Below are positions 2,266-44,671 of a stretch of 64,000 nt of DNA, one piece after another. Positions within the stretch are counted from its first letter, which is position 1. Each line of letters opens with the position of its first letter. A model generated the notes under the pieces. The model was given only the letters and a program-made list of their open reading frames with translations. It was not told where the DNA came from and did not search any database. Origin of the DNA: Hyaloraphidium curvatum (taxonomy: Eukaryota > Monoblepharomycota > Hyaloraphidiomycetes > Hyaloraphidiales > Hyaloraphidiaceae). The DNA lies in assembly GCA_025558095.1 (NCBI GenBank), contig JAIVFI010000040.1, forward strand, positions 62,001-126,000, given 5' to 3'. The translations under genes were made by a program, and so were the position numbers.

Positions 2266-2339
2266 ACGGGAAGGAGGAAGGTTTAGACTTGTACAGATCT
2301 TGGAAAAAGAGCTACCATGCTCAACAGCGGAAGTCTCGT

Positions 2340-2999: not shown

Positions 3000-3240
3000 C
3001 TCTGCGCGGCACGTCCAAGGAGACCGAGTAGCGCTCTGCTCGGTATGTGAAGCTGGCGCGGCGACCGGCGGCCTGCTCGGGAAGCCCGAACGTCGGAGAT
3101 TCGCGCGGCCGGGTGGGAGGCACCGTCCGTACGTACGCCCGCGTGCGGTCCGCGTTCCCTTCCAATTCGGAACTCGCTGCCACGCAGGGCCGGACAGGAC
3201 AACGAGCGGCGATTCCCGAGCACGCTGAGGCACGCAGACC

Positions 3241-4980
3241 GTCTATTTATCTCCAGCTGCTCGTTCCCGGCGCCGCAGCTTGGCTCCCGGCCCGCGGTCC
3301 CGCGCCTCACCTCCACGTCACCGCCCGCTCCGGATACGCAGACAGCCGCCCGGTGCTTCGCGGTGATGGTCGGCTGAGTCTGCTCATCACCTTTGAGGGC
3401 ACGAAGAGGGTGGCTGTCGGCGGCAGCATTCCGGGACGGGACGCGACAGACGACGCCCCTCCATTCACCTCGCCGCAGTCAGGCACGGGCAGCAGACAGC
3501 GGCATCACCTGCAGTACATCGACGGCGGATGCTATCGATGTGTTTGCACGGGTCGCCGCCGTCGGAGGACCTCAAACTTGGGAAGCGGGGAAGCCTGCGC
3601 GGACAGAACTGCCGCCGGCGAGGGGCGGCGCGGAGGCGAAAGCCGGACGGAAACGCCCCGGCCTCGTCGTCGACAGCTTCTAACGCCGATGAGGAGATCG
3701 GAGGGTTCGCTGTTGCTGGACAACCCCCGATCGGGCCGGGCGGCGGGCAATTGGCAACCAAAGTGGCTTCTTCTATCGCTGGAGAACAAACGGCGGGCAG
3801 GCGCGGGAGACAACGGTGTCCCATCGGCTCTTGTCGATGGCCGTTAGCCATCAATGAGCTGAGCGGCTTCGCTAGTTGTCGCCCCGACGGGGTTCCGCCG
3901 GACGCGCACGTCTGACGCCGAGGGATGCTTCCTTCCGGCAAGGCCGCGGAGACGGTGGGGCGGGGACGGGCGATCGACAGCCCCGCACAGCAGGGCCTCG
4001 TGAGCCTTGCCGGAAGCCTGCCGTCCCAATACGGACTGTTCGGGCTCACTCCTTGCGGAATTCGATGGCACCGCAGCACGAAGGAGACGGCGGGCTCGGG
4101 GGGCACGATCGACCGGACGCGCCGGTCGATTGTAGCCTCGCAGCCCGCCATCGCCGCATGAAGCACCGCAGCGAGGTGATGGAGCATCCTTGATTTTGGT
4201 CGGGAATGGACGAGGACGGAGACGGCGGGTGCGGGCGGACGCATCTATCGGGTCGCCGATCGATGTGCTCGGGGCGCGTTCCGCCGCCACCAATGACCGG
4301 CACTGTCATGCACTACGGACTCCGCTGTAGAGGGGTTCAAGGCGGGGACGGTGGGGTCGGCGACGGAGCTGTCGGCGGTCACGGACCGCCGATAGTCCCC
4401 CAAGTCGTCCCGCCGTCGCAGGAACCGTCACGTCGCCTCGCATCAGCCTGCCACGCGAACATGCACAGCCCATCTGTTCTTCTCCCGCAGCTCGTTCTCG
4501 GCGTTGCAGCTGTGCTCGACCCGCGGTTCCAGCCCGCCTCAACTCAACGTCACCCTCGCTCCCGAGTCGCGCCGTTTGCCGTGGCCGTTTTCCAGCACTA
4601 TCATGCACTAACGGACTCCGTAGTAGAGGACATGAAGGACGGAGACATTGGGGCTGACGCCGAGGCCGTCGGCGGGCGTGCCGCAGGCGGTTCCGAGCGA
4701 AGCCCTCTGTCGCCGGACCGTTCTTCGACTTCACATCGGTCTGCCACTCATCTACTCACACCACAACGCGCATTCAATCTATCTAGCTCCAGCTGATTGT
4801 TTCCGGCGCCGCAGCTCTGTTTCGGGCCATGGACAGTGCCTCACCTCCACGTCATGCCCGCTCCCGTCGACTCGCAGACAGCCGCGAGTCGGGCTCGTCC
4901 CCTCATAGGACGCGTCTGTTTGGATCCGTGGGCGGCAGAGAGCTGAGACAGCGGCAGACCCGGAGCTGCCTCCGGGCCCT
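3241..4980. repeat. Family of diverged dispersed repeat copies
   Basis: Three stretches share an ordered set of words: 3243-3360, about 4483-4580 and 4775-4890. All carry a version of 'CAGCTg.t.gTt..CGgCGccGCAGCT', then a purine-poor spacer, then 'CTCAcCTCCACGTCA'. The first and third also share 'CGCAGACAGCCGC' and a following segment with GGCGGCAG. The copies are far from identical and contain small gaps, so this is an old repeat, possibly a transposon remnant. No transposase fragment or target-site duplication could be recognised. Confidence 0.5.
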
Positions 4981-5008
4981 GCGCCGGTCGCTTTTGGTTT
5001 GAATGTAG

Positions 5009-5074
5009 ATAAGGAGCTGATTCTTGGGGCGTAGGGGGATTTCTAAGTCTACGGTGGGATTGCTAGCTCCTTAT
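5009..5074. repeat. Inverted-repeat element with 10-bp perfect arms
   Basis: ATAAGGAGCT at 5009-5018 is the exact reverse complement of AGCTCCTTAT at 5065-5074, with a 46-nt interior. It could be a small MITE-like remnant or a structured transcript end. It lacks tRNA T-loop sequence, so a tRNA was not called. Confidence 0.45.
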
Positions 5075-5316
5075 TACACACGACCTGAGCTCGTCGACTG
5101 AAGCTGCCGATGCAGCTGGCGGGTTGGACCGCTAGCTGTCACCCGGACCGTCCGGAACTTCTCGGTGCAATCGACCGCCAATTCTGGAACGAAGATGGCG
5201 GCCGCCCCAGGTGTCGAGTCAGCACCCGAACGCTTCGATCAGTCCCTGGACTCCACTTCAGCATGCTTATGCAATACGCGAGCTAGTATTGGAAACACGC
5301 ACTTCCATCGCCGACA

Positions 5317-14074: not shown

Positions 14075-16253
14075 TCAATCCTCGTCCTCGGCCGCTGGTT
14101 TCCCCGCTACCCTCAGCTTGGGCGGCCGCGGCACCTCCTCCGGCAGCTCCTCCACCGGCACGCCGAGCTGGCCGGCCAGGCGGCGGACGTGCGAGCGCCA
14201 GTGCTGCGGTGGGGTGCGGTCGTCAGCCCGTGCGATGGGAAGGCGGGGGGCGGTGCGCACCTGGAGCATGTTGTCGTGCCGGTTGAAGGTGCTCTGGCAC
14301 GCCGGCACCGGACACTGGTGGGGCTTGTCCTGCGTGTGCACCTATCGCGCGCATCAGCCCCCGTTTGCACACCGCACGGCGCAACAAAGACGCACCTTCT
14401 TGTGCCTGCCCAGGTACCCCGACGTGCCGAACACCTTGCCGCACACGTCGCACTCGTGCCCGCGCCGGCCGGACTTGCGGCGGCGGCGCCTGTCCTCGGA
14501 CGAATCGGAGGACGGGTCGTCCGAGGGCGGGGGCGGGGGCAGGGAGATGCTGGGGCGCTTGGCGGGGCGGCGGTCGGGCTGCGGTGCGGGCGCGGATGCG
14601 GTGGGGGGGAGGTCCGGCAGGGATGCGGCGGATGCGCGGCGGGGGGGGTCGAACGACGCCGAGGGCACGCTGGGGGGGCTGCGGATCGCGGGGGGGAGCA
14701 GAGGCTGCGGGGCGTCGCTGCGCTGCGGGAAGGCCGGGGCGGCGGGGTCCCGCGGGGAGAACGTTGTGCGGGGGTTGGAGGGGGGAGATGGGAAGGAGGG
14801 GAAGGCGACGTCGCGGGGGGAGATGGTGAGCTGCGCCGGCTGCTGGGGCGCGAACCGCGCGGCCTGGGAGGGATGCCGCGCCACCTGTGCCGGGGCCGGT
14901 GCAGGTGCTGCAGGCTGCGGCTGCATCGCCGGGAACCCGAGCGCGGGGGCCTCGCGCGGCGACGGGAACCCGGGGAAGTTGGGCGCCGACACGTCGCGCG
15001 GCGACACGGAGGTGAGCTGCGGGACTGGCGCGCGCGGCTGCGCGGGGGGCGGGGCGGCGGCCTGGCCGTAGATGCCGTACGGGTCCGCGAAAGCCTGGGG
15101 AGGCATGGGCTGCGGGAAGCGGTAGGCCTGCGGGGCCGGAGGGGGGGCGGAGGGCATGGGGTTGTACTGCACGTTGCGCGGGGGGGCGCGGGCTGCGACG
15201 GGGTGTCAGCATGCAAAGGAGGCGCGCGCGCAATAGAGGATGCAACCCACGTTCCCAGTCCCAGGCCTCCCCGTCAAAGCCGTCGAGCATGCGGTCGTAG
15301 CTCGCCGCATAGTCCGAGAGCATCTGCTGCAGCCCCGACGACGAGCGCATCGCTGCGCGCTGCTGGTTGGCCACGAGCTGCTGGTTCGCCAGCAGCTGCT
15401 GCTGCTGCGCAAACTGCTGGTTTGCGTACTGCTGGCTCGCCAGCTGCTGGTTGGCGTAGTACTGCGCAGCCTGGGCCGCCTGCGCCGCCTGCACGGCCGC
15501 GGCCGCGGCTTGCTCCGCCAGCGTTTGGGTCCGCCCGGGCGCCGGGCCCTCGGGCCTGCCGTACTCGCCGGCCTCCGGGTCCTGCTCACGCACGGGCGGC
15601 GGCGTGGACTGATTGTACCACGAGCCCTCCTCCGAGGGAAAGTCCACGAGCCCGCCCATGGTCGAGGTGCTCTCGTTGCCGTCGCCGTTGCCCGCCGAGC
15701 CTGCGGACCCCGAGCCGGGGGACCCGCCCGCGGCGCGGAGGCCGACGGCGCCGGCGTCCGAGTCCGAGTCGCGGTCTCTTTTGGCGGCGCCCCTGCGCGC
15801 GTAGGGCGCGGCCGAGAAGGCGGCGAGGTTGCGCAGGTTCTCGTACGACGACGCGTAGGCGACGAAGTTTGGGTCGCTGGGCGGCAGGTAGTACGGGCCC
15901 AGCGAGCCCTGGGCGGCCAGCTGCGGCGGGATCTGCGGCAGCAGGGCGCCGGGCGAGGCGTGCTGCGCGCCGGGCGAGTTGCCGAGCGTGCCCGATGCGT
16001 TCGAGCCGGAGCCGGCGGTGCGCGCCAGCGAGGCGGTGTTCGAGCGCTCCGAGCGGCCCGAGTCCGTGCGGCCGCGCTCGAAGTCGGCGTCGTCGCGCGG
16101 CGAGCCCTTTGCGCCGCGCAGGTACGCGGTCAGGCTGCCGTCGGACGACGCCGCCTCGGACGGCGGGCCCTTCAGCGAGCCGGGCGACGCGGCCGGCGAC
16201 GCGGCGGGCGAGCGCGCCCCGCCGCCGCCGAACGCGCCGTCGCGGCCGGCCAT
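14075..16253 (-). CDS. C2H2 zinc-finger transcription factor with Q/A-rich region
   Basis: Four exons, 669 residues: 16253-15251, 15192-14396, 14341-14261 and 14203-14075. The first 300 residues are Ser/Gly/Asp-rich. Around residues 270-320 is a helical Ala/Gln tract with repeated ANQQ/ASQQ/YANQQ words, then LQQMLSDYAASYDRMLDGFD, then a Pro-rich stretch with recurrent 'SPRDV' and 'PSFPSP' words. Two adjacent fingers lie at the C-terminus: CDVC-x12-H-x3-H, split by an intron after HKK, then CPVPAC-x12-H-x3-H (FNRHDNMLQ / HWRSH), split by another. An acidic tail follows. It should bind DNA as a regulator; target unknown. The start was chosen at MAGRDGAFGG because the long upstream open frame crosses the duplicated unit and looks compositional. 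Confidence 0.82.
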
Positions 16254-16598
16254 TGCGCTCTCAGCCGCGGGCGCGGGGCCGCTGCTCGCCGCGGGGCAGC
16301 CTGCTCGCCCCGGTGGTGGAGCGCTGCTGCCCTTGCGCTCGATGGGTGTTCCGTCGGTGGCGGTCGCCGCCCAAGCCGGCCGCTCCTCCCACCGGCTGCG
16401 ATGCGACGGCCGCGGGCGGATTCGCGCGTGGAAATCCGCCCCCGGCGAGTCCGCGGGGTCCCTGCCGCGTCGTCGGAAAGAGATCTCGCCCGACCCGATC
16501 CGCCTGGCTGATGCCCACAACGAGGGTCGGCCGCCGATCTCGCCCTGCAGCGCACACCACGGCTCCCCGGGCACCGTTTGCCGGCGGTTCATTTCGTG
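16254..16598. other. Upstream region of the C2H2 gene, ending at the tandem array
   Basis: 345 bp of GC-rich sequence between the C2H2 start codon and the left edge of the first tandem unit. It represents the unique left flank of the array. Both strands stay open, which is composition-driven. Confidence 0.4.
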
Positions 16599-17339
16599 CA
16601 TGCCCCCGCGCGGCCCGCCGGCCCGGTCCCGCCCCGATCCGCTTGCGATTGGCGGTCCCCAACCCCGCCCGGTCTGCGAGAGATCTGACTCCACACACTT
16701 GCCGCCCGGCCTCGCAGCCCCGGCCCGCGAACCCGCCGGCACTGTTTTCCCCCGCGCTTCGCGCCCCTGGCCTCTCCCGATCGACGGGGCCCCCCCGGTC
16801 GCCCCCGTCGGGTGTGCGGGATCGGCGCCGGCTGTGCGGTCCCCTACAAACGGCCCCCGACCCTGACTCACCCTCCGAACCCCATCCTTCCCCGCCCGCG
16901 CTCCCCCGCCAGCCGATCCGAATCCGCAGGGCCGCACCGCCCGCCGCGCCGCACCGCACCGACTTGCCGACGGCCGCGCCGCCGCGGGTTTTCCCGCCCC
17001 GCCGATCCCCCACCCAAAAATTGCCGCCCGCCCGCGCGGAGCGGCGCACGGGGACCCCATCTGCCGCCCGGAAACCGGTGGATCGGGGGGACCGCACAAT
17101 TTGCGCCTCTGCCGGGCGCATCGGCGTCTGGCGCTTGCCCGGGGCCGGGCGGACGCACCGGCATCCTCGTCGCCACAGCTTCCCGCCGCGCCACCGTCCG
17201 GCCGCGCGCTTTGTAACACGCTTCCCCTCGGGCAGAACCCCCCGGAACCGGCCGACGCCGCCCGCCGATTTCGTCCGATGCGGCAGGTTGATGCACACGG
17301 CGACGGTCTCGATCGCGATCATGGGAACGCTGGTTGCTC

Positions 17340-17880
17340 GGTAGTTTGCCGAGGTGAGCATGCGGCCCCGGCATGTGGCCGCGAGCTGGAAGTGCAGGCT
17401 GATGTAGAGCTCGTCAGCCAATGGGGGCAGCGGGGCGCCCCGCGAGGATGCCGCGGAGCAGCGATCGAGGAGGTCGGCGAGCTGAGGACTCTCGAACAGG
17501 ATGTTGCCTAGAACGGTCGGTTCATTGCCCGCGCGTTGGCGGACAGGGGAAAGCAGCCAGCATGGAGTCCACGAGGCGCCTGCATGCCGCCCAGCCGCGG
17601 AAAAGTTCGGCCTCGCCCGGCACGCGGACTGCCCTTGCTCCGCTTGTCCACCGTCTCGGCCTTGTACGCCGCGACGCCGGGCAGGGTGAGAAGCGTGCCG
17701 TCCGCCGCGGCGCGGTCAATTTTCTCCCGTGCCAGCTCGACGATGCCTTCAAAGAGGCAGATTCTTTCCTGAAGCACGGACCGCTGCTTGACCCCGGCAA
17801 ACGGTACCGCGCGGTCGACTGGCTGCTGCCGAACGGCAAGGAGCAGGGTGCGACCATCATCGCGGAGGCATGCTGCCACG
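17340..17880 (-). pseudogene. Minus-strand coding remnant in unit copy 1
   Basis: Protein-like segments lie in series but in different frames: RTLLLAVRQQPVDRAVPF, then ERICLFEGIVELAREKID and GVAAYKAETVDKR; after a frame change, PGEAELFRGWAACRRLVDSM; and after a possible short intron, NILFESPQLADLLDRC and LADELYISLHFQLAATCRG. The frame change has no room for an intron of the usual size. The order and GC-rich third positions suggest a decayed gene. The plus strand also reads plausibly here (AVDWLLPNGKEQGATIIAE), so orientation is not certain. No family recognised. Confidence 0.3.
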
Positions 17881-18211
17881 ACGCAGCGGTCCGATTCAAT
17901 TCGAGCAGTCACTCTTCTGCACACCCCTAGAGACCCGAATCCACACTCGCTAGGTGAACATGAAAGTTGGCGCGCTGCCGAGTCGTCCATCTGGGCGATC
18001 GGGGTGGAGCCCAAGCAGCTGCGTTGGGAGCTCCGCCACGTCCACTTCCCGGCTGGCCGACAGCGTCACCGTATTGGAATTTGCAGATTCCGCACCAGAA
18101 GGATATCGGAAAATGCATGAGCACATGCTTGCAGGAAGATGCTTAGCCTCGGCCTGTGGTCTTGCCCCATCCACTTACACCTTTCTATCAAACCCTCTTG
18201 CTTCACAGGGC

Positions 18212-19039
18212 ATGTCGTCCCCCAATCGCCGCGTATCGTGCTTGGCGTGCGCGAAGGTGCACCTCAAGTGCGACCGGGCACCCGGAGTCTGCGGGCGCTG
18301 CGCTTTCCGGGCGGACCATTGCGTCTACCCAAGCAACTCCGCGCCGCAGCCGGGCGGCCACCCCCGGCTGCCGTCCGCCGACGGATCACAGCCAGCTCTC
18401 AAAGACCTGCAGACGCCTTCCCCAGCCGTCGGCCTCCTCGCCTGCCGCCCTTTGGGAAATGGGGGACCCTCTTCCTCCAGAGATCACACCCCAACTGCTG
18501 CGCCCGCCTCCCCGCCCCTTTTCGGGGCGAGCCCCCCTGCAATTTACTCTCTCCCCTTTACTGGGCAGGCGTTGCCCGTCTCCCCGAGCCCCTTCTCGCT
18601 GCTCGCTCCGGATGGCGTGCCAAAAGTCTCCGTCGTCGCACATGATTCTTCAAGACATTCACTCTGTGCGCATCCGCACTCCGTGAAACATCGGCCTTCC
18701 CCCAATAACTCTCCTGTGGAACCAGGTTCTGGCTCGACTGCGCCGACGCCGAACACCCCTGCCTCCCCTGCCACCTCCTCGTTGCCGCCCAACATGCCCG
18801 GCCCGTGCACGACACCACCGGGTCCTTCCGACTCCCCCGACCGCATGTCGCTCGCATTCCTCCTCTCCTATGACTCGCCGCTCGGTTGCGGGCCTGGCGC
18901 GGGCTCGCTCGGCCCTTTGGGGCCCCAGGCGGGGACCGCCAAACAGCACGGAGCCGGCGGGACAGTGCACACCCGTTCCGCTCTTGACCCCGGAGGAGAC
19001 ACTCTGGCGCCGGATCGGATGGCGTCTGAACTCGGATAA
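18212..19039 (+). CDS. Zn2Cys6 DNA-binding protein, copy 1 (275 residues)
   Basis: The first ATG before the zinc cluster is at 18212. Six cysteines at residues 10, 13, 20, 27, 30 and 37 give C-x2-C-x6-C-x6-C-x2-C-x6-C inside RRVSCLACAKVHLKCD and CGRCAFRADHCVYP. This is the fungal binuclear zinc cluster that binds CGG-type half sites. The remainder is Ser/Pro/Thr-rich with no domain. The frame stops at 19037-19039. A second frame resembling the regulatory domain of such factors begins about 0.6 kb downstream on the same strand, so this could be the 5' part of one larger gene. No splice pair of usual intron size joins them. Confidence 0.65.
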   Translation: MSSPNRRVSCLACAKVHLKCDRAPGVCGRCAFRADHCVYPSNSAPQPGGHPRLPSADGSQPALKDLQTPSPAVGLLACRPLGNGGPSSSRDHTPTAAPASPPLFGASPPAIYSLPFTGQALPVSPSPFSLLAPDGVPKVSVVAHDSSRHSLCAHPHSVKHRPSPNNSPVEPGSGSTAPTPNTPASPATSSLPPNMPGPCTTPPGPSDSPDRMSLAFLLSYDSPLGCGPGAGSLGPLGPQAGTAKQHGAGGTVHTRSALDPGGDTLAPDRMASELG

Positions 19040-19650
19040 ATCGTCGGGGGAGTCATCCGAGAGGCTCGTCAGGGGAGTCATCCCAAAGGAGTCATCCCCA
19101 GCCGAGTAGCCAAGCCGCGGACGGCGAAGAGGGCTTTCGGCCCACTGCTGTTCCAAGCACAGACCGTTGGATGCCGCAGCACAATCAATTGCCCTGTTGG
19201 CCTGTTGGACGAAACCACCATCCGCACCAAGGACTGCTAGACGGAGGAGGTGGCAAGCCCGCACCTGATTTCGAGTTGGCCAGGGTTTAGGTTATGACGC
19301 ATGGTGGCCCATCGCGCCACCTAGTCGAGTCACAACTGACCTGCCAACGGATTCCGGGAGTGCCCAACCGGGCAAACGTCGCGGGAAGTATCAGAGCAGC
19401 CAACCGTGTACACTGTGCGCGCCCTCGAGCCTTCGCGCGCCACATCGGACCGAAACGAACCCAGCGCGGCCCCGCCCCGCCAACGAGGGAGTGGGTCAGA
19501 CCACGGCCCGACAAACAGAACAGACTGGGACGGCCAGGCGCATCGGAACGGCTTTTCGCGGCGATTTCCAGAAGCTCGACCGGGCAACCTCGGGCGCGGA
19601 GGCTTCGGCGCCGACGTGGGCCGCGTGAGACGGGACGCTGCTGTTCTCAG
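19040..19650 (+). other. Spacer between the two reading frames in the unit, copy 1
   Basis: About 610 bp with stops in every plus-strand frame. It has an ACTCATCC-like direct repeat (GGAGTCATCC three times at 19,051-19,107). It might be a long intron, several small exons, or a real intergenic region. Short protein-like pieces (TPEETLWRRIGWRLNSD; FQKLDRATSGAEASAPTW) do not join in a convincing way. The same stretch occurs in copies 2 and 3. Confidence 0.4.
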
Positions 19651-19710
19651 TAGCTGCGGCCGGCGGTGTCGGCGACGCGAACAGCGGGCCCTTCGACGTA
19701 CGAGGACGCT

Positions 19711-22535
19711 ATGGGGCCCGACCCGACGATCCTCCTGGCCCCGTGGCCAACGGCGCCCGAGACTCTGGCCGCACCGCGTTTCAACAACTCGCCGGGCAAC
19801 GCAGCCCCGGACACCGGCCCCGAGGAGCCGTTCTCCCCCTCACCTGGGGTGTACGTGCATGTTTCGATCCCCATCACCGCCGTCGTCGGCCTCGTGCGCC
19901 ACTTCTTCCGCACACACCCGCGCCTGCGCCTACTCCACGCGCGCCGCGTGTGCCGCGACTTTCCCCCGCGCCAGGCCGCGCTCTCGTGTCTCCTTCTGGA
20001 CGCCGCGGGCAGCCTGGCACAGTCCATGGCCCGGGGCGACCCGGAACCGGCCCTGCAGGCGCACGTGCTGGACCCCGAGGGCCTCGAGATGCGGCTCTTT
20101 GCAGAGGCCGCGGGTGAGATCGAAGCGTGGCTGTTGGCAGACCCCGCGGAGAGAACTCCATTGGACGCCACCGAGTTCCTTGCGGCGCCCCTGATTATGC
20201 ACGGGTGGGCCGAGCGGAGGGGGTTGTTCGACCTTGCCAAGACGCTGGAAGGTGTTTGTGCCTACGTCGCCGGGGTGGCCGTGGCCAGCGGCTCCACGTC
20301 GTCGTGGGAGACCGTCATGTGTTCGGCTCTTCGGGTCAGGAGCGTCGACGAGGTGCGGGCAGCTCCGCTGGCGCCCCATTGGGTTGCACTGTTGCGGGAC
20401 GCGTGGACGGCGTACCACGAGTTCCAGGGGTGCCTCTTTGCGCTCGCCCGCATAGAAGCCGAGGCTGCGGCCCGCGACTCCCTGTCCACGAAGCGCGGCG
20501 ACCCTACCGGACTCGATTTCCTCGTGGGGCACCTCCACACTATGCCTCCGGACGGCACGTGGCGCCTCTCCTTTCAGGACGCGTTCGACCCCAGGTTCGC
20601 GGACCATAGACCCTCTCACGTTGCTCCCCTCCTCGCCTGGATCGGCGTTGCTCCCCCCCGCCCGTCTCTCCCCGCACAGCTCTCCACCCCGGACGTCGCC
20701 TTCCTGCTTCTCGCGCGCACCCGCCTCCTCCTCGACGCTCTGCACGCCGCCGCCGCCTCCTCCTCCTCCTGCTTACCCTACCCCGATCTCGACGACTGCA
20801 ACGAATCCAAATCAGGTGACGAGATGCACAGCAGTGCGTCCTTCACCTGCGACGTTGAACGGCGCCGCCGCGGGCTGCTCGTCTCCGTGCGGTCGCTCCA
20901 CGCTCTGCTCGCCAATGAGGCGGAGGAATGCGCCCGCGCGGTTCTGGCCGGCGCTTGGATGGAGCTCGAGACACCGTGCGGGGAAGTGTTTATTCGAGGG
21001 AGGGTGCACGCCGGGTTCATCGAGGGGCTGGCAGACAAGGTTGCGTCCGCGGAGGGCGGCGGAGTGATGCTGGGCGAGGTTTGTTTCTCCTGCATGACGG
21101 GCGTGCGTTGGGCACCGGCGTGCTGACCGCAGACCCGCACGCAGATCCTCGAAGCGATTGCCGCCCTCCGTGCGCGATCGATTGCTACCCGCCGTCTCCC
21201 CGGCCCGCTGCATGGCCCCGCGCTGCTCTGCATCTCCCTCTTGCACGTATCTTTGCACCAGCGGGTGCTCGTCCGCGGCGGGCCGCCGGATGTGCACGCG
21301 ACGGTGCTGCGGCAGCTTGCCGCGTGCGCGTCGCTGCTGCCCACGGACGGTGGGGACACGGTACTAGCGTGGGCCAAGGTGCTGGTGTCGGGCGTTCTCA
21401 AGAATGTGGGGTTGGGGGAAGCGGCTGGGGACGGGGGCTTGAGGACGGGGGAGGTGGCGGCCCTGCGCGAATGGTTGCGATGCATGTGATTGCGCGACGA
21501 GGACCATGTAACGGTCATAATTAAGTTCCTGCATAACCCAAACGTTCGGATTCTACGCTGCACAGCTACCTGCCGTACGCGATGATGGACGACCTCCTCG
21601 AGCGCGTGGCGCGACGCGGCGACGACGACTTCGATCTGGTGGTGCCGCAGTCGATCCTGATGCGCACCCAGCAGTTCTTTGAAGAGGACATTGACTCGCC
21701 CGATCACTTGCCCCCCCGCGCCGACGGTGGAGGAGCAATGCACATTTTAGCCCAGGCGCGTTCCGCTGGCCATGCAGGAAACGGGAACGCATGCCCCCGC
21801 GCGGCCCGCCGGCCCGGTCCCGCCCCGATCCGCTTGCGATTGGCGGTCCCCAACCCCGCCCGGTCTGCGAGAGATCTGACTCCACACACTTGCCGCCCGG
21901 CCTCGCAGCCCCGGCCCGCGAACCCGCCGGCACTGTTTCCCCCCGCGCTTCGCGCCCCTGGCCTCTCCCGATCGACGGGGGCCCCCCGGTCGCCCCCGTC
22001 GGGTGTGCGGGATCGGCGCCGGCTGTGCGGTCCCCTACAAACGGCCCCCGACCCTGACTCACCCTCCGAACCCCATCCTTCCCCGCCCGCGCTCCCCCGC
22101 CCGCCGATCCGAATCCGCAGGGCCGCACCGCCCGCCGCGCCGCACCGCACCGACTTGCCGACGGCCGCGCCGCCGCGTGTTTTCCCGCCCTGCCGATCCC
22201 CCACCCAAAAATTGCCGCCCGCCCGCGCGGAGCGGCGCACGGGGACCCCATCTGCGGCCCGGAAACCGGTGGATCGGGGGGACCGCACAATTTGCGCCTC
22301 TGCCGGGCGCATCGGCGTCTGGCGCTTGCCCGGGGCCGGGCGGACGCACCGGCATCCTCGTCGCCACAGCTTCCCGCCGCGCCACCGTCCGGCCGCGCGC
22401 TTTGCAACACGCTTCCCCTCGGGCAGAACCCCCCGGAACCGACCGACGCCGCCCGCCGATTTCGTCCGATGCGGCAGGTTGATGCACACGGCGACGGTCT
22501 CGATCGCGATCATGGGAACGATGGTTGCTCGGTAG
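19711..22535 (+). CDS. Fungal regulator middle-homology-like protein, copy 1, 3' end fused into next unit
   Basis: Exons 19711-21078, 21145-21485 and 21566-22535. The first intron (GTTTGT...CACGCAG) contains a stop, so splicing is needed to reach the C-terminal part. The protein has long amphipathic helices: VVGLVRHFFRTHPRLRLLHA, then FPPRQAALSCLLLDAAGSLA, then GWAERRGLFDLAKTLEGV, and YLPYAMMDDLLERVARRG after the second splice. The opening 'L..HFF..HP...LLH' followed by a LLLDA helix resembles the middle homology region of Zn2Cys6 regulators. After 21789 the frame passes through the junction into copy 2 and stops at 22535, so the last 250 residues are an artefact of duplication. Family assignment is tentative. 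Confidence 0.5.
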
Positions 22536-23071
22536 TTTGCCGAGGTGAGCATGCGGCCCCGGCATGTGGCCGCGAGCTGGAAGTGCAGGCTGATGTAGAG
22601 CTCGTCAGCCAATGGGGGCAGCGGGGCGCCCCGCGAGGACGCCGCGGAGCAGCGATCGAGGAGGTCGGCGAGCTGAGGACTCTCGAACAGGATGTTGCCT
22701 AGAACGGTCGGTTCATTGCCCGCGCGTTGGCGGACAGGGGAAAGCAGCCAGCATGGAGTCCACGAGGCGCCTGCATGCCGCCCAGCCGCGGAAAAGTTCG
22801 GCCTCGCCCGGCACGCGGACTGCCCTTGCTCCGCTTGTCCACCGTCTCGGCCTTGTACGCCGCGACGCCGGGCAGGGTGAGAAGCGTGCCGTCCGCCGCG
22901 GCGCGGTCAATTTTCTCCCGTGCCAGCTCGACGATGCCTTCAAAGAGGCAGATTCTTTCCTGAAGCACGGACCGCTGCTTGACCCCGGCAAACGGTACCG
23001 CGCGGTCGACTGGCTGCTGCCGAACGGCAAGGAGCAGGGTGCGACCATCATCGCGGAGGCATGCTGCCACG
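22531..23071 (-). pseudogene. Minus-strand coding remnant in unit copy 2
   Basis: Counterpart of the remnant at 17340-17880, offset by 5191 bp. It has the same frame break, so the damage predates the tandem duplication. One base differs from copy 1 near 22,640. Confidence 0.3.
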
Positions 23072-23402
23072 ACGCAGCGGTCCGATTCAATTCGAGCAGT
23101 CACTCTTCTGCACACCCCTAGAGACCCGAATCCACACTCGCTAGGTGAACATGAAAGTTGGCGCGCTGCCGAGTCGTCCATCTGGGCGATCGGGGTGGGG
23201 CCCAAGCAGCTGCGTTGGGAGCTCCGCCACGTCCACTTCCCGGCTGGCCGACAGCGTCACCGTATTGGAATTTGCAGATTCCGCACCAGAAGGATATCGG
23301 AAAATGCATGAGCACATGCTTGCAGGAAGATGCTTAGCCTCGGCCTGTGGTCTTGCCCCATCCACTTACACCTTTCTATCAAACCCTCTTGCTTCACAGG
23401 GC

Positions 23403-24230
23403 ATGTCGTCCCCCAATCGCCGCGTATCGTGCTTGGCGTGCGCGAAGGTGCACCTCAAGTGCGACCGGGCACCCGGAGTCTGCGGGCGCTGCGCTTTCCG
23501 GGCGGACCATTGCGTCTACCCAAGCAACTCCGCGCCGCAGCCGGGCGGCCACCCCCGGCTGCCGTCCGCCGACGGATCACAGCCAGCTCTCAAAGACCTG
23601 CAGACGCCTTCCCCAGCCGTCGGCCTCCTCGCCTGCTGCCCTTTGGGAAATGGGGGACCCTCTTCCTCCAGAGATCACACCCCAACTGCTGCGCCCGCCT
23701 CCCCGCCCCTTTTGGGGGCGAGCCCCCCTGCAATTTACTCTCTCCCCTTTACTGGGCAGGCGTTGCCCGTCTCCCCGAGCTCCTTCTCGCTGCTCGCTCC
23801 GGATGGCGTGCCAAAAGTCTCCGTCGTCGCACGTGATTCTTCAAGACATTCACTCTGTGCGCATCCGCACTCCGTGAAACATCGGCCTTCCCCCAATAAC
23901 TCTCCTGTGGAACCAGGTTCTGGCTCGACTGCGCCGACGCCGAACACCTCTGCCTCCCCTGCCACCTCCTCGTTGCCGCCCAACATGCCCGGCCCGTGCA
24001 CGACACCACCGGGAGCTTCCGGCTCCCCCGACCGCATGTCGCTCGCATTCCTCCTCTCCTATGACTACCCGCTCGGTTGCGGGCCTGGCGCGGGCTCGCT
24101 CGGCCCTTTGGGGCCCCAGGCGGGGACCGCCAAACAGCACCGAGCCGGCGGGACAGTGCACACCCGTTCCGCTCTTGACCCCGGAGGAGACACTCTGGCG
24201 CCGGATCGGATGGCGTCTGAACTCGGATGA
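23403..24230 (+). CDS. Zn2Cys6 DNA-binding protein, copy 2 (275 residues)
   Basis: Same zinc cluster as copy 1, all six cysteines kept. It differs from copy 1 at about nine residues, all downstream of the cluster (for example LACRP to LACCP, PPLFG to PPLLG, VVAHD to VVARD, SYDSP to SYDYP). Nearly all base differences in this frame change the amino acid. It ends at the same relative position as copy 1. Confidence 0.65.
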   Translation: MSSPNRRVSCLACAKVHLKCDRAPGVCGRCAFRADHCVYPSNSAPQPGGHPRLPSADGSQPALKDLQTPSPAVGLLACCPLGNGGPSSSRDHTPTAAPASPPLLGASPPAIYSLPFTGQALPVSPSSFSLLAPDGVPKVSVVARDSSRHSLCAHPHSVKHRPSPNNSPVEPGSGSTAPTPNTSASPATSSLPPNMPGPCTTPPGASGSPDRMSLAFLLSYDYPLGCGPGAGSLGPLGPQAGTAKQHRAGGTVHTRSALDPGGDTLAPDRMASELG

Positions 24231-24901
24231 ATCGTCGGGGGAGTCATCCGAGAGGCTCGTCAGGGGAGTCATCCCAAAGGAGTCATCCCCAGCCGAGTAG
24301 CCAAGCCGCGGACGGCGAAGAGGGCTTTCGGCCCACTGCTGTTCCAAGCACAGACCGTTGGATGCCGCAGCACAATCAATTGCCCTGTTGGCCTGTTGGA
24401 CGAAACCACCATCCGCACCAAGGACTGCTCGACGGAGGAGGTGGCAAGCCCGCACCTGATTTCGAGTTGGCCAGGGTTTAGGTTATGACGCATGGTGGCC
24501 CATCGCGCCGCCTAGTCGAGTCACAACTGACCTGCCAACGGATTCCGGGAGTGCCCAACCGGGCAAACGTCGCGGGAAGTATCAGAGCAGCCAACCGTGT
24601 ACACTGTGCGCGCCCTCGAGCCTTCGCGCGCCACATCGGACCGAAACGAACCCAGCGCGGCCCCGCCCCGCCAACGAGGGAGTGGGTCAGACCACGGCCC
24701 GACAAACAGAACAGACTGGGACGGCCAGGCGCATCGGAACGGCTTTTCGCGGCGATTTCCAGAAGCTCGACCGGGCAACCTCGGGCGCGGAGGCTTCGGC
24801 GCCGACGTGGGCCGCGTGAGACGGGACGCTGCTGTTCTCAGTAGCTGCGGCCGGCGGTGTCGGCGACGCGAACAGCGGGCCCTTCGACGTACGAGGACGC
24901 T

Positions 24902-27726
24902 ATGGGGCCCGACCCGACGATCCTCCTGGCCCCGTGGCCAACGGCGCCCGAGACTCTGGCCGCACCGCGTTTCAACAACTCGCCGGGCAACGCAGCCCCG
25001 GACACCGGCCCCGAGGAGCCGTTCTCCCCCTCACCTGGGGTGTACGTGCATGTTTCGATCCCCATCACCGCCGTCGTCGGCCTCGTGCGCCACTTCTTCC
25101 GCACACACCCGCGCCTGCGCCTACTCCACGCGCGCCGCGTGTGCCGCGACTTTCCCCCGCGCCAGGCCGCGCTCTCGTGTCTCCTTCTGGACGCCGCGGG
25201 CAGCCTGGCACAGTCCATGGCCCGGGGCGACCCGGAACCGGCCCTGCAGGCGCACGTGCTGGACCCCGAGGGCCTCGAGATGCGGCTCTTTGCAGAGGCC
25301 GCGGGTGAGATCGAAGCGTGGCTGTTGGCAGACCCCGCGGAGAGAACTCCATTGGACGCCACCGAGTTCCTTGCGGCGCCCCTGATTATGCACGGGTGGG
25401 CCGAGCGGAGGGGGTTGTTCGACCTTGCCAAGACGCTGGAAGGTGTTTGTGCCTACGTCGCCGGGGTGGCCGTGGCCAGCGGCTCCACGTCGTCGTGGGA
25501 GACCGTCATGTGTTCGGCTCTTCGGGTCAGGAGCGTCGACGAGGTGCGGGCAGCTCCGCTGGCGCCCCATTGGGTTGCACTGTTGCGGGACGCGTGGACG
25601 GCGTACCACGAGTTCCAGGGGTGCCTCTTTGCGCTCGCCCGCATAGAAGCCGAGGCTGCGGCCCGCGACTCCCTGTCCACGAAGCGCGGCGACCCTACCG
25701 GACTCGATTTCCTCGTGGGGCACCTCCACACTATGCCTCCGGACGGCACGTGGCGCCTCTCCTTTCAGGACGCGTTCGACCCCAGGTTCGCGGACCATAG
25801 ACCCTCTCACGTTGCTCCCCTCCTCGCCTGGATCGGCGTTGCTCCCCCCCGCCCGTCTCTCCCCGCACAGCTCTCCACCCCGGACGTCGCCTTCCTGCTT
25901 CTCGCGCGCACCCGCCTCCTCCTCGACGCTCTGCACGCCGCCGCCGCCTCCTCCTCCTCCTGCTTACCCTACCCCGATCTCGACGACTGCAACGAATCCA
26001 AATCAGGTGACGAGATGCACAGCAGTGCGTCCTTCACCTGCGACGTTGAACGGCGCCGCCGCGGGCTGCTCGTCTCCGTGCGGTCGCTCCACGCTCTGCT
26101 CGCCAATGAGGCGGAGGAATGCGCCCGCGCGGTTCTGGCCGGCGCTTGGATGGAGCTCGAGACACCGTGCGGGGAAGTGTTTATTCGAGGGAGGGTGCAC
26201 GCCGGGTTCATCGAGGGGCTGGCAGACAAGGTTGCGTCCGCGGAGGGCGGCGGAGTGATGCTGGGCGAGGTTTGTTTCTCCTGCATGACGGGCGTGCGTT
26301 GGGCACCGGCGTGCTGACCGCAGACCCGCACGCAGATCCTCGAAGCGATTGCCGCCCTCCGTGCGCGATCGATTGCTACCCGCCGTCTCCCCGGCCCGCT
26401 GCATGGCCCCGCGCTGCTCTGCATCTCCCTCTTGCACGTATCTTTGCACCAGCGGGTGCTCGTCCGCGGCGGGCCGCCGGATGTGCACGCGACGGTGCTG
26501 CGGCAGCTTGCCGCGTGCGCGTCGCTGCTGCCCACGGACGGTGGGGACACGGTACTAGCGTGGGCCAAGGTGCTGGTGTCGGGCGTTCTCAAGAATGTGG
26601 GGTTGGGGGAAGCGGCTGGGGACGGGGGCTTGAGGACGGGGGAGGTGGCGGCCCTGCGCGAATGGTTGCGATGCATGTGATTGCGCGACGAGGACCATGT
26701 AACGGTCATAATTAAGTTCCTGCATAACCCAAACGTTCGGATTCTACGCTGCACAGCTACCTGCCGTACGCGATGATGGACGACCTCCTCGAGCGCGTGG
26801 CGCGACGCGGCGACGACGACTTCGATCTGGTGGTGCCGCAGTCGATCCTGATGCGCACCCAGCAGTTCTTTGAAGAGGACATTGACTCGCCCGATCACTT
26901 GCCCCCCCGCGCCGACGGTGGAGGAGCAATGCACATTTTAGCCCAGGCGCGTTCCGCTGGCCATGCAGGAAACGGGAACGCATGCCCCCGCGCGGCCCGC
27001 CGGCCCGGTCCCGCCCCGATCCGCTTGCGATTGGCGGTCCCCAACCCCGCCCGGTCTGCGAGAGATCTGACTCCACACACTTGCCGCCCGGCCTCGCAGC
27101 CCCGGCCCGCGAACCCGCCGGCACTGTTTCCCCCCGCGCTTCGCGCCCCTGGCCTCTCCCGATCGACGGGGGCCCCCCGGTCGCCCCCGTCGGGTGTGCG
27201 GGATCGGCGCCGGCTGTGCGGTCCCCTACAAACGGCCCCCGACCCTGACTCACCCTCCGAACCCCATCCTTCCCCGCCCGCGCTCCCCCGCCCGCCGATC
27301 CGAATCCGCAGGGCCGCACCGCCCGCCGCGCCGCACCGCACCGACTTGCCGACGGCCGCGCCGCCGCGTGTTTTCCCGCCCTGCCGATCCCCCACCCAAA
27401 AATTGCCGCCCGCCCGCGCGGAGCGGCGCACGGGGACCCCATCTGCGGCCCGGAAACCGGTGGATCGGGGGGACCGCACAATTTGCGCCTCTGCCGGGCG
27501 CATCGGCGTCTGGCGCTTGCCCGGGGCCGGGCGGACGCACCGGCATCCTCGTCGCCACAGCTTCCCGCCGCGCCACCGTCCGGCCGCGCGCTTTGCAACA
27601 CGCTTCCCCTCGGGCAGAACCCCCCGGAACCGACCGACGCCGCCCGCCGATTTCGTCCGATGCGGCAGGTTGATGCACACGGCGACGGTCTCGATCGCGA
27701 TCATGGGAACGATGGTTGCTCGGTAG
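24902..27726 (+). CDS. Fungal regulator middle-homology-like protein, copy 2, 3' end fused into next unit
   Basis: Exons 24902-26269, 26336-26676 and 26757-27726, the same model as copy 1. The translation up to the junction at 26980 is identical to copy 1. The frame again crosses into the next unit and stops at 27726. Confidence 0.5.
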
Positions 27727-28262
27727 TTTGCCGAGGTGAGCATGCGGCCCCGGCATGTGGCCGCGAGCTGGAAGTGCAGGCTGATGTAGAGCTCGTCAGC
27801 CAATGGGGGCAGCGGGGCGCCCCGCGAGGACGCCGCGGAGCAGCGATCGAGGAGGTCGGCGAGCTGAGGACTCTCGAACAGGATGTTGCCTAGAACGGTC
27901 GGTTCATTGCCCGCGCGTTGGCGGACAGGGGAAAGCAGCCAGCATGGAGTCCACGAGGCGCCTGCATGCCGCCCAGCCGCGGAAAAGTTCGGCCTCGCCC
28001 GGCACGCGGACTGCCCTTGCTCCGCTTGTCCACCGTCTCGGCCTTGTACGCCGCGACGCCGGGCAGGGTGAGAAGCGTGCCGTCCGCCGCGGCGCGGTCA
28101 ATTTTCTCCCGTGCCAGCTCGACGATGCCTTCAAAGAGGCAGATTCTTTCCTGAAGCACGGACCGCTGCTTGACCCCGGCAAACGGTACCGCGCGGTCGA
28201 CTGGCTGCTGCCGAACGGCAAGGAGCAGGGTGCGACCATCATCGCGGAGGCATGCTGCCACG
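27722..28262 (-). pseudogene. Minus-strand coding remnant in unit copy 3
   Basis: Counterpart of the remnant at 17340-17880, offset by 10382 bp, with the same frame break and the same sequence as copy 2. Confidence 0.3.
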
Positions 28263-28593
28263 ACGCAGCGGTCCGATTCAATTCGAGCAGTCACTCTTCT
28301 GCACACCCCTAGAGACCCGAATCCACACTCGCTAGGTGAACATGAAAGTTGGCGCGCTGCCGAGTCGTCCATCTGGGCGATCGGGGTGGGGCCCAAGCAG
28401 CTGCGTTGGGAGCTCCGCCACGTCCACTTCCCGGCTGGCCGACAGCGTCACCGTATTGGAATTTGCAGATTCCGCACCAGAAGGATATCGGAAAATGCAT
28501 GAGCACATGCTTGCAGGAAGATGCTTAGCCTCGGCCTGTGGTCTTGCCCCATCTACTTACACCTTTCTATCAAACCCTCTTGCTTCACAGGGC

Positions 28594-29259
28594 ATGTCGT
28601 CCCCCAATCGCCGCGTATCGTGCTTGGCGTGCGCGAAGGTGCACCTCAAGTGCGACCGGGCACCCGGAGTCTGCGGGCGCTGCGCTTTCCGGGCGGACCA
28701 TTGCGTCTACCCAAGCAACTCCGCGCCGCAGCCGGGCGGCCACCCCCGGCTGCCGTCCGCCGACGGATCACAGCCAGCTCTCAAAGACCTGCAGACGCCT
28801 TCCCCAGCCGTCGGCCTCCTCGCCTGCTGCCCTTTGGGAAATGGGGGACCCTCTTCCTCCAGAGATCACACCCCAACTGCTGCGCCCGCCTCCCCGCCCC
28901 TTTTGGGGGCGAGCCCCCCTGCAATTTACTCTCTCCCCTTTACTGGGCAGGCGTTGCCCGTCTCCCCGAGCTCCTTCTCGCTGCTCGCTCCGGATGGCGT
29001 GCCAAAAGTCTCCGTCGTCGCACATGATTCTTCAAGACATTCACTCTGTGCGCATCCGCACTCCGTGAAACATCGGCCTTCCCCCAATCACTCTCCTGTG
29101 GAACCAGGTTCTGGCTCGACTGCGCCGACGCCGAACACCCCTGCCTCCCCTGCCACCTCCTCGTTGCCGCCCAACATGCCCGGCCCGTGCACGACACCAC
29201 CGGGTCCTTCCGGCTCCCCCGACCGCATGTCGCTCGCATTCCTCCTCTCCTATGACTAG
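28594..29259 (+). CDS. Zn2Cys6 DNA-binding protein, copy 3, truncated (221 residues)
   Basis: Zinc cluster identical to the other copies. The codon after TATGAC is TAG here, where copy 1 has TCG and copy 2 TAC, so the frame ends at 29257-29259, 54 residues early. A 4-bp deletion about 80 bp further on would shift the old frame as well. If the tail matters, this copy is a pseudogene. If translation stops soon after the DNA-binding part, it could act as a short competitor; that is speculation. Confidence 0.55.
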   Translation: MSSPNRRVSCLACAKVHLKCDRAPGVCGRCAFRADHCVYPSNSAPQPGGHPRLPSADGSQPALKDLQTPSPAVGLLACCPLGNGGPSSSRDHTPTAAPASPPLLGASPPAIYSLPFTGQALPVSPSSFSLLAPDGVPKVSVVAHDSSRHSLCAHPHSVKHRPSPNHSPVEPGSGSTAPTPNTPASPATSSLPPNMPGPCTTPPGPSGSPDRMSLAFLLSYD

Positions 29260-30088
29260 CCGCTCGGTTGCGGGCCTGGCGCGGGCTCGCTCGGCCCTTT
29301 GGGGCCCCAGGCGGGGACCGCCAAACAGCACGGAGCCGGACAGTGCACACCCGTTCCGCTCTTGACCCCGGAGGAGACACTCTGGCGCCGGATCGGATGG
29401 CGTCTGAACTCGGATAAATCGTCGGGGGAGTCATCCGAGAGGCTCGTCAGGGGAGTCATCCCAAAGGAGTCATCCCCAGCCGAGTAGCCAAGCCGCGGAC
29501 GGCGAAGAGGGCTTTCGGCCCACTGCTGTTCCAAGCACAGACCGTTGGATGCCGCAGCACAATCAATTGCCCTGTTGGCCTGTTGGACGAAACCACCATC
29601 CGCACCAAGGACTGCTCGACGGAGGAGGTGGCAAGCCCGCACCTGATTTCGAGTTGGCCAGGGTTTAGGTTATGACGCATGGTGGCCCATCGCGCCGCCT
29701 AGTCGAGTCACAACTGACCTGCCAACGGATTCCGGGAGTGCCCAACCGGGCAAACGTCGCGGGAAGTATCAGAGCAGCCAACCGTGTACACTGTGCGCGC
29801 CCTCGAGCCTTCGCGCGCCACATCGGACCGAAACGAACCCAGCGCGGCCCCGCCCCGCCAACGAGGGAGTGGGTCAGACCACGGCCCGACAAACAGAACA
29901 GACTGGGACGGCCAGGCGCATCGGAACGGCTTTTCGCGGCGATTTCCAGAAGCTCGACCGGGCAACCTCGGGCGCGGAGGCTTCGGCGCCGACGTGGGCC
30001 GCGTGAGACGGGACGCTGCTGTTCTCAGTAGCTGCGGCCGGCGGTGTCGGCGACGCGAACAGCGGGCCCTTCGACGTACGAGGACGCT

Positions 30089-32316
30089 ATGGGGCCCGAC
30101 CCGACGATCCTCCTGGCCCCGTGGCCAACGGCGCCCGAGACTCTGGCCGCACCGCGTTTCAACAACTCGCCGGGCAACGCAGCCCCGGACACCGGCCCCG
30201 AGGAGCCGTTCTCCCCCTCACCTGGGGTGTACGTGCATGTTTCGATCCCCATCACCGCCGTCGTCGGCCTCGTGCGCCACTTCTTCCGCACACACCCGCG
30301 CCTGCGCCTACTCCACGCGCGCCGCGTGTGCCGCGACTTTCCCCCGCGCCAGGCCGCGCTCTCGTGTCTCCTTCTGGACGCCGCGGGCAGCCTGGCACAG
30401 TCCATGGCCCGGGGCGACCCGGAACCGGCCCTGCAGGCGCACGTGCTGGACCCCGAGGGCCTCGAGATGCGGCTCTTTGCAGAGGCCGCGGGTGAGATCG
30501 AAGCGTGGCTGTTGGCAGACCCCGCGGAGAGAACTCCATTGGACGCCACCGAGTTCCTTGCGGCGCCCCTGATTATGCACGGGTGGGCCGAGCGGAGGGG
30601 GTTGTTCGACCTTGCCAAGACGCTGGAAGGTGTTTGTGCCTACGTCGCCGGGGTGGCCGTGGCCAGCGGCTCCACGTCGTCGTGGGAGACCGTCATGTGT
30701 TCGGCTCTTCGGGTCAGGAGCGTCGACGAGGTGCGGGCAGCTCCGCTGGCGCCCCATTGGGTTGCACTGTTGCGGGACGCGTGGACGGCGTACCACGAGT
30801 TCCAGGGGTGCCTCTTTGCGCTCGCCCGCATAGAAGCCGAGGCTGCGGCCCGCGACTCCCTGTCCACGAAGCGCGGCGACCCTACCGGACTCGATTTCCT
30901 CGTGGGGCACCTCCACACTATGCCTCCGGACGGCACGTGGCGCCTCTCCTTTCAGGACGCGTTCGACCCCAGGTTCGCGGACCATAGACCCTCTCACGTT
31001 GCTCCCCTCCTCGCCTGGATCGGCGTTGCTCCCCCCCGCCCGTCTCTCCCCGCACAGCTCTCCACCCCGGACGTCGCCTTCCTGCTTCTCGCGCGCACCC
31101 GCCTCCTCCTCGACGCTCTGCACGCCGCCGCCGCCTCCTCCTCCTCCTGCTTACCCTACCCCGATCTCGACGACTGCAACGAATCCAAATCAGGTGACGA
31201 GATGCACAGCAGTGCGTCCTTCACCTGCGACGTTGAACGGCGCCGCCGCGGGCTGCTCGTCTCCGTGCGGTCGCTCCACGCTCTGCTCGCCAATGAGGCG
31301 GAGGAATGCGCCCGCGCGGTTCTGGCCGGCGCTTGGATGGAGCTCGAGACACCGTGCGGGGAAGTGTTTATTCGAGGGAGGGTGCACGCCGGGTTCATCG
31401 AGGGGCTGGCAGACAAGGTTGCGTCCGCGGAGGGCGGCGGAGTGATGCTGGGCGAGGTTTGTTTCTCCTGCATGACGGGCGTGCGTTGGGCACCGGCGTG
31501 CTGACCGCAGACCCGCACGCAGATCCTCGAAGCGATTGCCGCCCTCCGTGCGCGATCGATTGCTACCCGCCGTCTCCCCGGCCCGCTGCATGGCCCCGCG
31601 CTGCTCTGCATCTCCCTCTTGCACGTATCTTTGCACCAGCGGGTGCTCGTCCGCGGCGGGCCGCCGGATGTGCACGCGACGGTGCTGCGGCAGCTTGCCG
31701 CGTGCGCGTCGCTGCTGCCCACGGACGGTGGGGACACGGTACTAGCGTGGGCCAAGGTGCTGGTGTCGGGCGTTCTCAAGAATGTGGGGTTGGGGGAAGC
31801 GGCTGGGGACGGGGGCTTGAGGACGGGGGAGGTGGCGGCCCTGCGCGAATGGTTGCGATGCATGTGATTGCGCGACGAGGACCATGTAACGGTCATAATT
31901 AAGTTCCTGCATAACCCAAACGTTCGGATTCTACGCTGCACAGCTACCTGCCGTACGCGATGATGGACGACCTCCTCGAGCGCGTGGCGCGACGCGGCGA
32001 CGACGACTTCGATCTGGTGGTGCCGCAGTCGATCCTGATGCGCACCCAGCAGTTCTTTGAAGAGGACATTGACTCGCCCGATCACTTGCCCCCCCGCGCC
32101 GACGGTGGAGGAGCAATGCACATTTTAGCCCAGGCGCGTTCCGCTGGCCATGCAGGAAACGGGAACGAGCCGCAGAATAGTCCCGGATTAGAAGGAAGTG
32201 GGAAGTCGGCAGCAAACAGTAGAAGGGGCCACCTTCGGGAGCGCGCATTTGTCCTTCAATTGGAGCGGGAACTCCGGCACCGCGGCTGTGAGCATTACAT
32301 TGCTGCTGAGTCATAA
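30089..32316 (+). CDS. Fungal regulator middle-homology-like protein, copy 3, native 3' end
   Basis: Exons 30089-31456, 31523-31863 and 31944-32316 give 693 residues. The unit part is identical to copies 1 and 2. Past the unit border at 32167 the frame continues through NEPQNSPGLEGSGK and ERAFVLQLERELRHRG and stops at 32316. This is the only copy whose end lies in unique DNA, so it most likely shows the ancestral C-terminus. Confidence 0.5.
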
Positions 32317-43600: not shown

Positions 43601-44671
43601 CTTGCGCCTGTCGGCGTCTGTCGGCCCCCGGTCCGACAGCGGCTTCGTGATGATGGCGTCCCCGGCGGGTTCCACGGGGTTCACCTGGCCGTCGAGGATC
43701 TCGGCGTTGAGCAGGAGCGACTCGACGAGCAGGCTGTGCTCGCGCATTTCGAGGCGCTCCCCGGCCTGGAACGCGGGCCGGGCGGCCTCGTACAGGCGGA
43801 AGACCTCCTTGGCGTCGATGGGGACCTCGAAGAGCTTCGAGGCCTCGGTGAGGAGGTCCGCCCGCGATTTGGGGAACCAATCGGTCTGGGTGTAGGAGAG
43901 GAGCTTCTTGCGCAGGTCGGCGGTGGGCGGAGAGAGGTTGCGGACCGGGGTGGGCCGCGCGCCGTCCTTGCGGTCCTTGGCTCCGTCGCCCTTCTGGCGG
44001 TCCGCTTCCTTGCGATCGCCCTGCCGGCGGTCCCCTTGCGCGCGGTCGCCCTGCTGGCTCCGCTCGCCGCGTTGGTCGCGCCTCTCCTTGCCGTCCTGCT
44101 TCTGGCGCCCCTGATTCCGCCCGTCGCCGCGGTCCTTCCCCTCTTCCCTCACGGCCCCGCGGACCTTTTCCTTCCTGGCCCTTCCCTCTTCACGGTCGGC
44201 CCCGTCCCCGCGGCCGGATTCCTTCCCCTCGCGGCCTCTGCGGACGCGCGTGCCCTCCTGGGCGGACACGCGATCGGCCCCGTCCTGCGCCTCGTCCTGC
44301 GCCTCCGCGGCGCCCTCCTCGCGCCCCTTCTTCCTCCTGCTCTTTTTGCCCCCCTCAGCGGGCAGCTCGCCCGCAGATGGCTCGCCGTCCAGTGCCGCGT
44401 CGGGCTCGCGCGCCCTCGGCGGCTTTGGTTTCCGCACGGCGAACGCCGCGTCGTCGTCCAGCTCGGCCATGTCGGCGTCGCCAAAGTCGATTTCCCGCGC
44501 GCGGAACGGCGGCGAGGCGGCAAAGGCGCGCGACGGCGCGGGCGGCGGCGGGGCGCGCCACGCGCCGCTCGCGCGCGGATGCGCCGCAGCGAGGGGCGAT
44601 GCGCGGCGCCGCGCGTGGCCGCCAATCGCGCAGGCCAAGGAGGCGCGCGCCGCGGCGATGCGGGTCCACAT
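40605..44671 (-). CDS. Large mitochondrial helical-repeat (PPR/TPR-like) protein
   Basis: Three exons, 44671-43482, 43391-42551 and 42488-40605, give 1304 residues. The N-terminus MWTRIAAARASLACAIGGHA, Arg/Ala-rich without acids for about 60 residues, looks like a mitochondrial presequence. A charged tract rich in RG, GDR and KE words covers about residues 95-250. Then a long alpha-helical region follows with repeat-like helices (LRKKLLSYTQTDWFPKSRAD, EVFRLYEAARPAF, RRLLRIFQHQASEGRL, ELVVASLRLSYPVLAGEFLQ, LEGWVRIGELGKAVDAVEQF, SAYAEVLARAGEWARAAKAV). The C-terminus is again Arg/Glu/Gly-rich with REEGSREDGRKEEG repeats. Helical repeats plus basic RG tails suggest organellar RNA metabolism or translation. 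No strict PPR motif was matched, so the class is an inference. Confidence 0.6.

Follow-up and report, generated by a model that had tools for sequence, protein, structure and literature searches.

The window analyzed here is a stretch of 64,000 nucleotides from Hyaloraphidium curvatum (bases 62001-126000 of the 476,666-bp contig JAIVFI010000040.1, hereafter C40; assembly GCA_025558095.1, 31,925,308 bases in 55 contigs), and it carries three head-to-tail copies, A, B and C, of a unit of about 5.2 kb. We consider it likely, with good confidence, that this array is a real tandem duplication of the nuclear genome that formed with near-zero homology between its ends, grew to three copies by unequal exchange and was later subject to partial gene conversion.

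In a self-BLAST of the window, the three copies abut directly on the same strand, exact to the base, with lengths of 5191, 5191 and 5187 bp, as a preliminary description of this DNA had stated (Table 1). The letters at the two internal joins, GGGAACG/CATGCCC with the slash marking the join, are identical, again in agreement with that description, and a 32-base sequence across the join is found at exactly two places in the whole assembly (reversed-pattern control, 0). At the native edges, the left flank enters the unit as ...TTTCGTG/CATGCCC and the unit leaves into the right flank as ...GGGAACG/AGCCGCAG; one base, G, is common to the two, matching the earlier estimate of at most one shared base at the breakpoints. 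Direct matches within 150 bp on either side of the native breakpoints reach at most 9 bp, at about 100 bp from the breaks, and inverted ones at most 7 bp.

Among the matches of more than 40 bp listed in the self-BLAST, none links the unit to sequence beyond the array. Both flanks keep native neighbouring sequence, as any clean tandem duplication would. They show no same-strand repeat of at least 200 bp and at least 80% identity in the 276,000 of the 476,666 bases of C40 that were compared, and no match to the compared stretches of contigs C26, C13 and C23. The claim that the outer flanks are unique holds within these sequences, apart from one weak inverted match of 74 bp (81%) in the self-BLAST between the left flank and 44509-44572. 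In the same comparison of C40 with itself, the next-longest same-strand repeat is 860 bp at 92.7%, and the remaining pairs measure 328 bp (97.6%), 258 bp (81.8%), 223 bp (91.5%) and 204 bp (96.1%). An Rfam scan of the window gave 0 matches at the gathering threshold. Adjacent copies in one orientation, identical joins and unlike flanks are together the make-up of a tandem segmental duplication.

The three copies differ at 31 columns, with A the odd one at 18, B at 7 and C at 6; the C columns comprise 2 substitutions and one 4-bp deletion, which explains the 5187-bp length of that copy. With adjacent substitutions counted separately and all events treated as independent, this amounts to 28 events (27 substitutions and 1 deletion), all confined to unit positions 150-2721; A, B and C do not differ at all over the final 2470 bp of the unit. 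An empty stretch of at least 2470 bp appeared in 1 of 200,000 random placements of 28 events; if events were uniform, the probability of finding all 28 in the left 2721 bp would be 1.4e-8, for a boundary chosen from the data. We also weighted the events by divergence from a related sequence on contig C26, which is 8.0% (0.080) at unit 1300-2721 and 5.4% (0.054) at 2722-4913. About 17 events would then be expected on the right, and the probability, with the boundary again chosen from the data, becomes 1.5e-6 (1.8e-4 for the 18 A columns alone and 0.008 for the other 10 events). Slower change of the gene thus explains the identity poorly. Local identity between the copies exceeds what their age would predict, as it does in concerted evolution by gene conversion, and the pattern of differences suggests that conversion or exchange at a later stage, once the duplications had taken place, probably homogenised the right half. 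The 7 private changes of copy B are clustered, spanning 396 bp (unit 2044-2440; window 23833-24229), and an equally tight cluster was seen in 16 of 200,000 random sets placed within unit 1-2721. Repeat-induced point mutation was considered as the cause of the differences and rejected, since many kinds of change are seen and not only C:G to T:A.

The related sequence on C26 aligns to unit 1259-4913 at 92% and provides an outgroup for the order of events. Of the 18 columns at which A is odd, ten are not covered by this match and so carry no polarity. At the other eight, C26 agrees with A at five, where B and C have a derived base in common, and with B and C at three. Of the 7 columns of copy B, 5 are derived relative to C26 (at 2225 C26 is unlike all copies, and at 2440 B equals C26), and copy C is derived at both of its substitutions. 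Judged from these bases, A was the first to branch off and B and C separated later, one site being in conflict. The preliminary description had proposed two steps, a first duplication without long homology and a later step to three copies; the single shared base supports the former, and the five derived bases common to B and C support the latter, the conflicting site notwithstanding. Both steps thus fit, but a two-step history leaves the identical right half unexplained, which is why a later homogenisation is added here.

From the observed geometry, joins, one-base overlap and distribution of differences, we infer a history in three steps: (i) end-joining or template switching, with next to no homology, would have connected two breaks about 5.2 kb apart between sister chromatids or homologous ones, giving two copies; (ii) copy A would have diverged from the ancestor of B and C, after which unequal exchange between copies would have given three; and (iii) gene conversion, or exchange in the right half, would have made the last 2.47 kb identical, with the left half retaining the older differences. 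Several points weigh against this account. Site 2440 groups A with C and not B with C, the count of three copies comes from one assembly, redundant sequence that is perhaps misassembled is present elsewhere in that assembly (contig C51), and the timing of the conversion is itself deduced.

The alternative that survives best is a mixture of alleles, in which haplotype versions of a locus with fewer true copies, from a diploid or mixed culture, would have been put together into an array by the assembler. The copies do form haplotype-like blocks, with A set against B and C across the left half and the 7 B sites within 396 bp, and the redundancy between C51 and C10 would be in keeping with such an origin. 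A false haplotype duplication should, however, join through matching sequence, and the joins here link unlike ends; at least one molecule must truly contain the repeated junction; two single-copy haplotypes cannot yield three left-half types; and a genome search in which 7 of 8 candidates were scored found no second full copy of the unit on other contigs. We therefore regard a mixture of alleles as unlikely. No usable paper on the ploidy or sequencing of the H. curvatum genome was found among those listed in literature searches.

Repetition of a single copy by assembly error alone could account for the identical right 2470 bp and would sit well with the redundancy on C51, but it is very improbable, given that the same clean join occurs twice and that A and B are separated by 25 substitutions, the copies differing by substitutions and the one 4-bp deletion without any of the single-base gaps typical of raw long-read error. 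Private bases had earlier been cited against a simple assembly echo, and the 31 columns that tell the copies apart uphold that argument. The longest gap between copy-distinguishing sites is 4325 bp, so reads longer than this could order the copies. As for C51 itself (21,801 bp), its first 1500 bp recur about 11.7 kb on, from position 11708, at 99.93%; these repeats match C10 (42901-44901) at 99.9-100%, the second occurrence at 100% over 1579 bp. This is either redundant assembly sequence or a further recent duplication.

By comparison with C26, the clearly constrained cargo of the unit is DFJ74DRAFT_434729, a gene for a 570-aa protein, and not the Zn2Cys6-type open frame that precedes it. The ratio of replacement to silent divergence (omega) between this gene and C26 is 0.36 (bootstrap 0.23-0.56), and the two align gap-free over 1778 of 1779 bp, intron included. 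Two observations count against this assignment: the ATG at the model start is TTG in C26, and the zinc motif of the other frame does not vary among A, B and C. On C26 the public model is the longer of the two, at 791 aa, and its end is read in a different frame. C26 and C23 carry relatives of the 570-aa gene, and C8, C31 and C25 carry weaker ones; among the listed matches to the Zn2Cys6 domain (Pfam Zn_clus, PF00172), only the C26 relative has one in its vicinity, the distance to the nearest being about 16 kb for the C25 relative and more than 200 kb for the others. The 570-aa protein has no Pfam match, and its predicted structure, mostly helical with a mean predicted local distance difference test score (pLDDT) of 33.5 from a three-row alignment, is too poor to use. 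Protein searches with two frames of the unit gave 3 hits (486-aa frame) and 1 hit (361-aa frame), every named hit being from H. curvatum, and the single hit of a 1031-aa frame that crosses the left edge was likewise from H. curvatum; the best 7996, 7996 and 7973 candidates by shared words, respectively, were scored. The array most plausibly delivers three identical copies of DFJ74DRAFT_434729.

The preliminary description had assigned a Zn2Cys6 regulator to the unit, and this stands only as regards the domain. Like fungal Zn2Cys6 regulators, the frame contains a Zn_clus domain above cut-off (24.2 bits against 21) in all three copies, each with the same intact motif; the array contributes three of at least 96 Zn_clus matches genome-wide. 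Unlike them, it shows no purifying selection over the whole frame that could be detected against the C26 relative in 240 codons (omega 1.1, bootstrap 0.60-2.26), it is truncated in copy C, and no regulator domain was found by Pfam in the adjoining 570-aa gene, which is the constrained one. Over the first 60 codons, replacement divergence (dN) is 0.054 and silent divergence (dS) 0.070, values that derive from just 7 and 3 changes, and A and B differ by 10 replacement and 2 silent changes. In copy C, a TAG at unit 2277-2279 shortens the frame to 307 aa and the 4-bp deletion is also found; the public model DFJ74DRAFT_434750 (285 aa) best fits this copy. The frame, as modelled by DFJ74DRAFT_434750, may be decaying. 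Splicing of the frame to the 570-aa gene via a single short intron was rejected, as stops intervene in copy A: in the frame of the 570-aa gene, a stop is found 20 codons upstream of where the model begins, and another two occur inside 230 codons. A joining by several introns could still be accommodated. Elsewhere in the genome, double Zn_clus matches with starts about 140-250 bp apart in one frame occur at C35:503349/503598, C26:525547/525748, C4:54798/55029 and C16:611926/612073, among others, and such frames are apparent double Zn2Cys6 clusters.

Beyond its C26-like part, the unit contains C13-like pieces (unit 682-1253) that are 156 and 8 bp apart, as compared with 1.4 and 1.9 kb in C13, and it may hold a fossil chimera from deletion between tandem relatives. 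The C13 counterpart (L010 5216-8878) spreads the pieces over 3.7 kb, with parts locally repeated at 80-83%. Unit 3256-4892 matches C23 at 70%, and there are short matches to C42 (140 bp, 73%) and C25 (61 bp, 80%). Mobile elements of the rolling-circle or circle kind do occur as head-to-tail arrays and with captured gene pieces. The mosaic of C13-like and C26-like parts would suit such an element, rolling-circle or inserted in tandem as a circle, but we give this origin hardly any credence: the first 681 and last 278 bp of the unit have no match listed among the best candidates scored in the genome search, the C26 match stops before both unit ends, the array edges show no target-site duplication or terminal inverted repeat, and the selected frames scanned contain no Pfam transposase, helicase or recombinase.

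To the left of the array lies, on the minus strand, the main part (14078-16280) of DFJ74DRAFT_774735, a public model of 883 aa with C2H2-type fingers (Pfam PF13465). Its N-terminal exons fall within copy A, reaching 18118, and the model so spans the left edge of the array. These exons lie in the sequence that resembles C13 and in the first stretch of the sequence that resembles C26, both of which recur in B and C. The model is probably a chimera that wrongly takes in exons of the unit, with the true start at the ATG at 16253, in which case the left edge of the array would lie 346 bp upstream of the C2H2-type gene. In the right flank no gene was identified, and two frames there have no Pfam match. 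A 773-aa frame on the plus strand of the window at 49410-51731 scores 19.8 bits for Exo_endo_phos, below the Pfam cut-off of 24.5.

Table 1. Features of the array and its left neighbour, in window coordinates (unit positions and other contigs where named)
Feature	Position	Strand	Remarks
Copy A of unit	16599-21789	+	5191 bp; 18 private columns, unit 150-2721
Copy B of unit	21790-26980	+	5191 bp; 7 private columns, unit 2044-2440
Copy C of unit	26981-32167	+	5187 bp; private substitutions at unit 1574 and 2109, 4-bp deletion at unit 2358-2361
Join A/B	21783-21796		GGGAACG/CATGCCC
Join B/C	26974-26987		Same letters as join A/B
Right part of copy A	19320-21789 (unit 2722-5191)	+	Identical in B (24511-26980) and C (29698-32167)
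C26-like part of unit	17857-21511	+	C26:393890-397521, other strand, 92%, 3.65 kb; recurs in B and C
C13-like part of unit	17280-17851		Three pieces, 17280-17480, 17637-17740 and 17749-17851, at about 95, 92 and 91%; recurs in B and C
DFJ74DRAFT_434729, copy A	19711-21489 (exons 19711-21078 and 21145-21489)	+	570 aa; constrained
DFJ74DRAFT_434729, counterparts	B 24902-26680; C 30089-31867	+	Identical to copy A
Zn2Cys6-type open frame, copy A	17954-19039	+	361 aa
Zn2Cys6-type open frame, copy B	23145-24230	+	361 aa
Zn2Cys6-type open frame, copy C	28336-29259	+	307 aa, ended by TAG
C2H2-type zinc-finger gene body, part of DFJ74DRAFT_774735	14078-16253	-	Likely ATG at 16253

The array is a tidy case, in that the joins, the native ends and a C26 outgroup for most of the unit are all present, and the order of events is consequently readable in part. 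The lineage is Monoblepharomycota, in which, to our knowledge, little work of this kind exists. A bolder proposal, which we put forward tentatively and hold to be rather doubtful, is that the array is young and that conversion repeatedly resets only the half with the constrained gene, so that a protein with search hits only in H. curvatum stays encoded by three identical copies, while the upstream half with the former regulator frame diverges and takes clustered changes. If this were true, the array would be a natural test of the reach of conversion tracts and of dosage selection maintaining the copies.

Finally, we compared the array with known systems. Origin-dependent inverted-repeat amplification (ODIRA) gives an inverted middle copy, and it was rejected here, as all three H. 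curvatum copies are in the same orientation. In a review of fungal structural variation, ODIRA, described for SUL1, likewise concerns three copies of a chromosomal segment, but it depends on small interrupted inverted repeats (PMC8150848); between the edges of the present array no inverted match exceeds 7 bp. Tandem arrays with unequal exchange and conversion are known from yeast, and that review bears on them (PMC8150848). The resemblance to yeast tandem gene arrays lies in head-to-tail repeats of a few kb, a gene cargo, near-identical copies, and exchange together with conversion; the present array differs in having three copies only, in organism and gene, and in its full identity over one half of the unit. 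Tandem duplication nearly free of homology, followed by unequal exchange and conversion, is a standard fungal route to changes in gene copy number, and the H. curvatum array looks like an event of this known kind, an ordinary gene-copy expansion.

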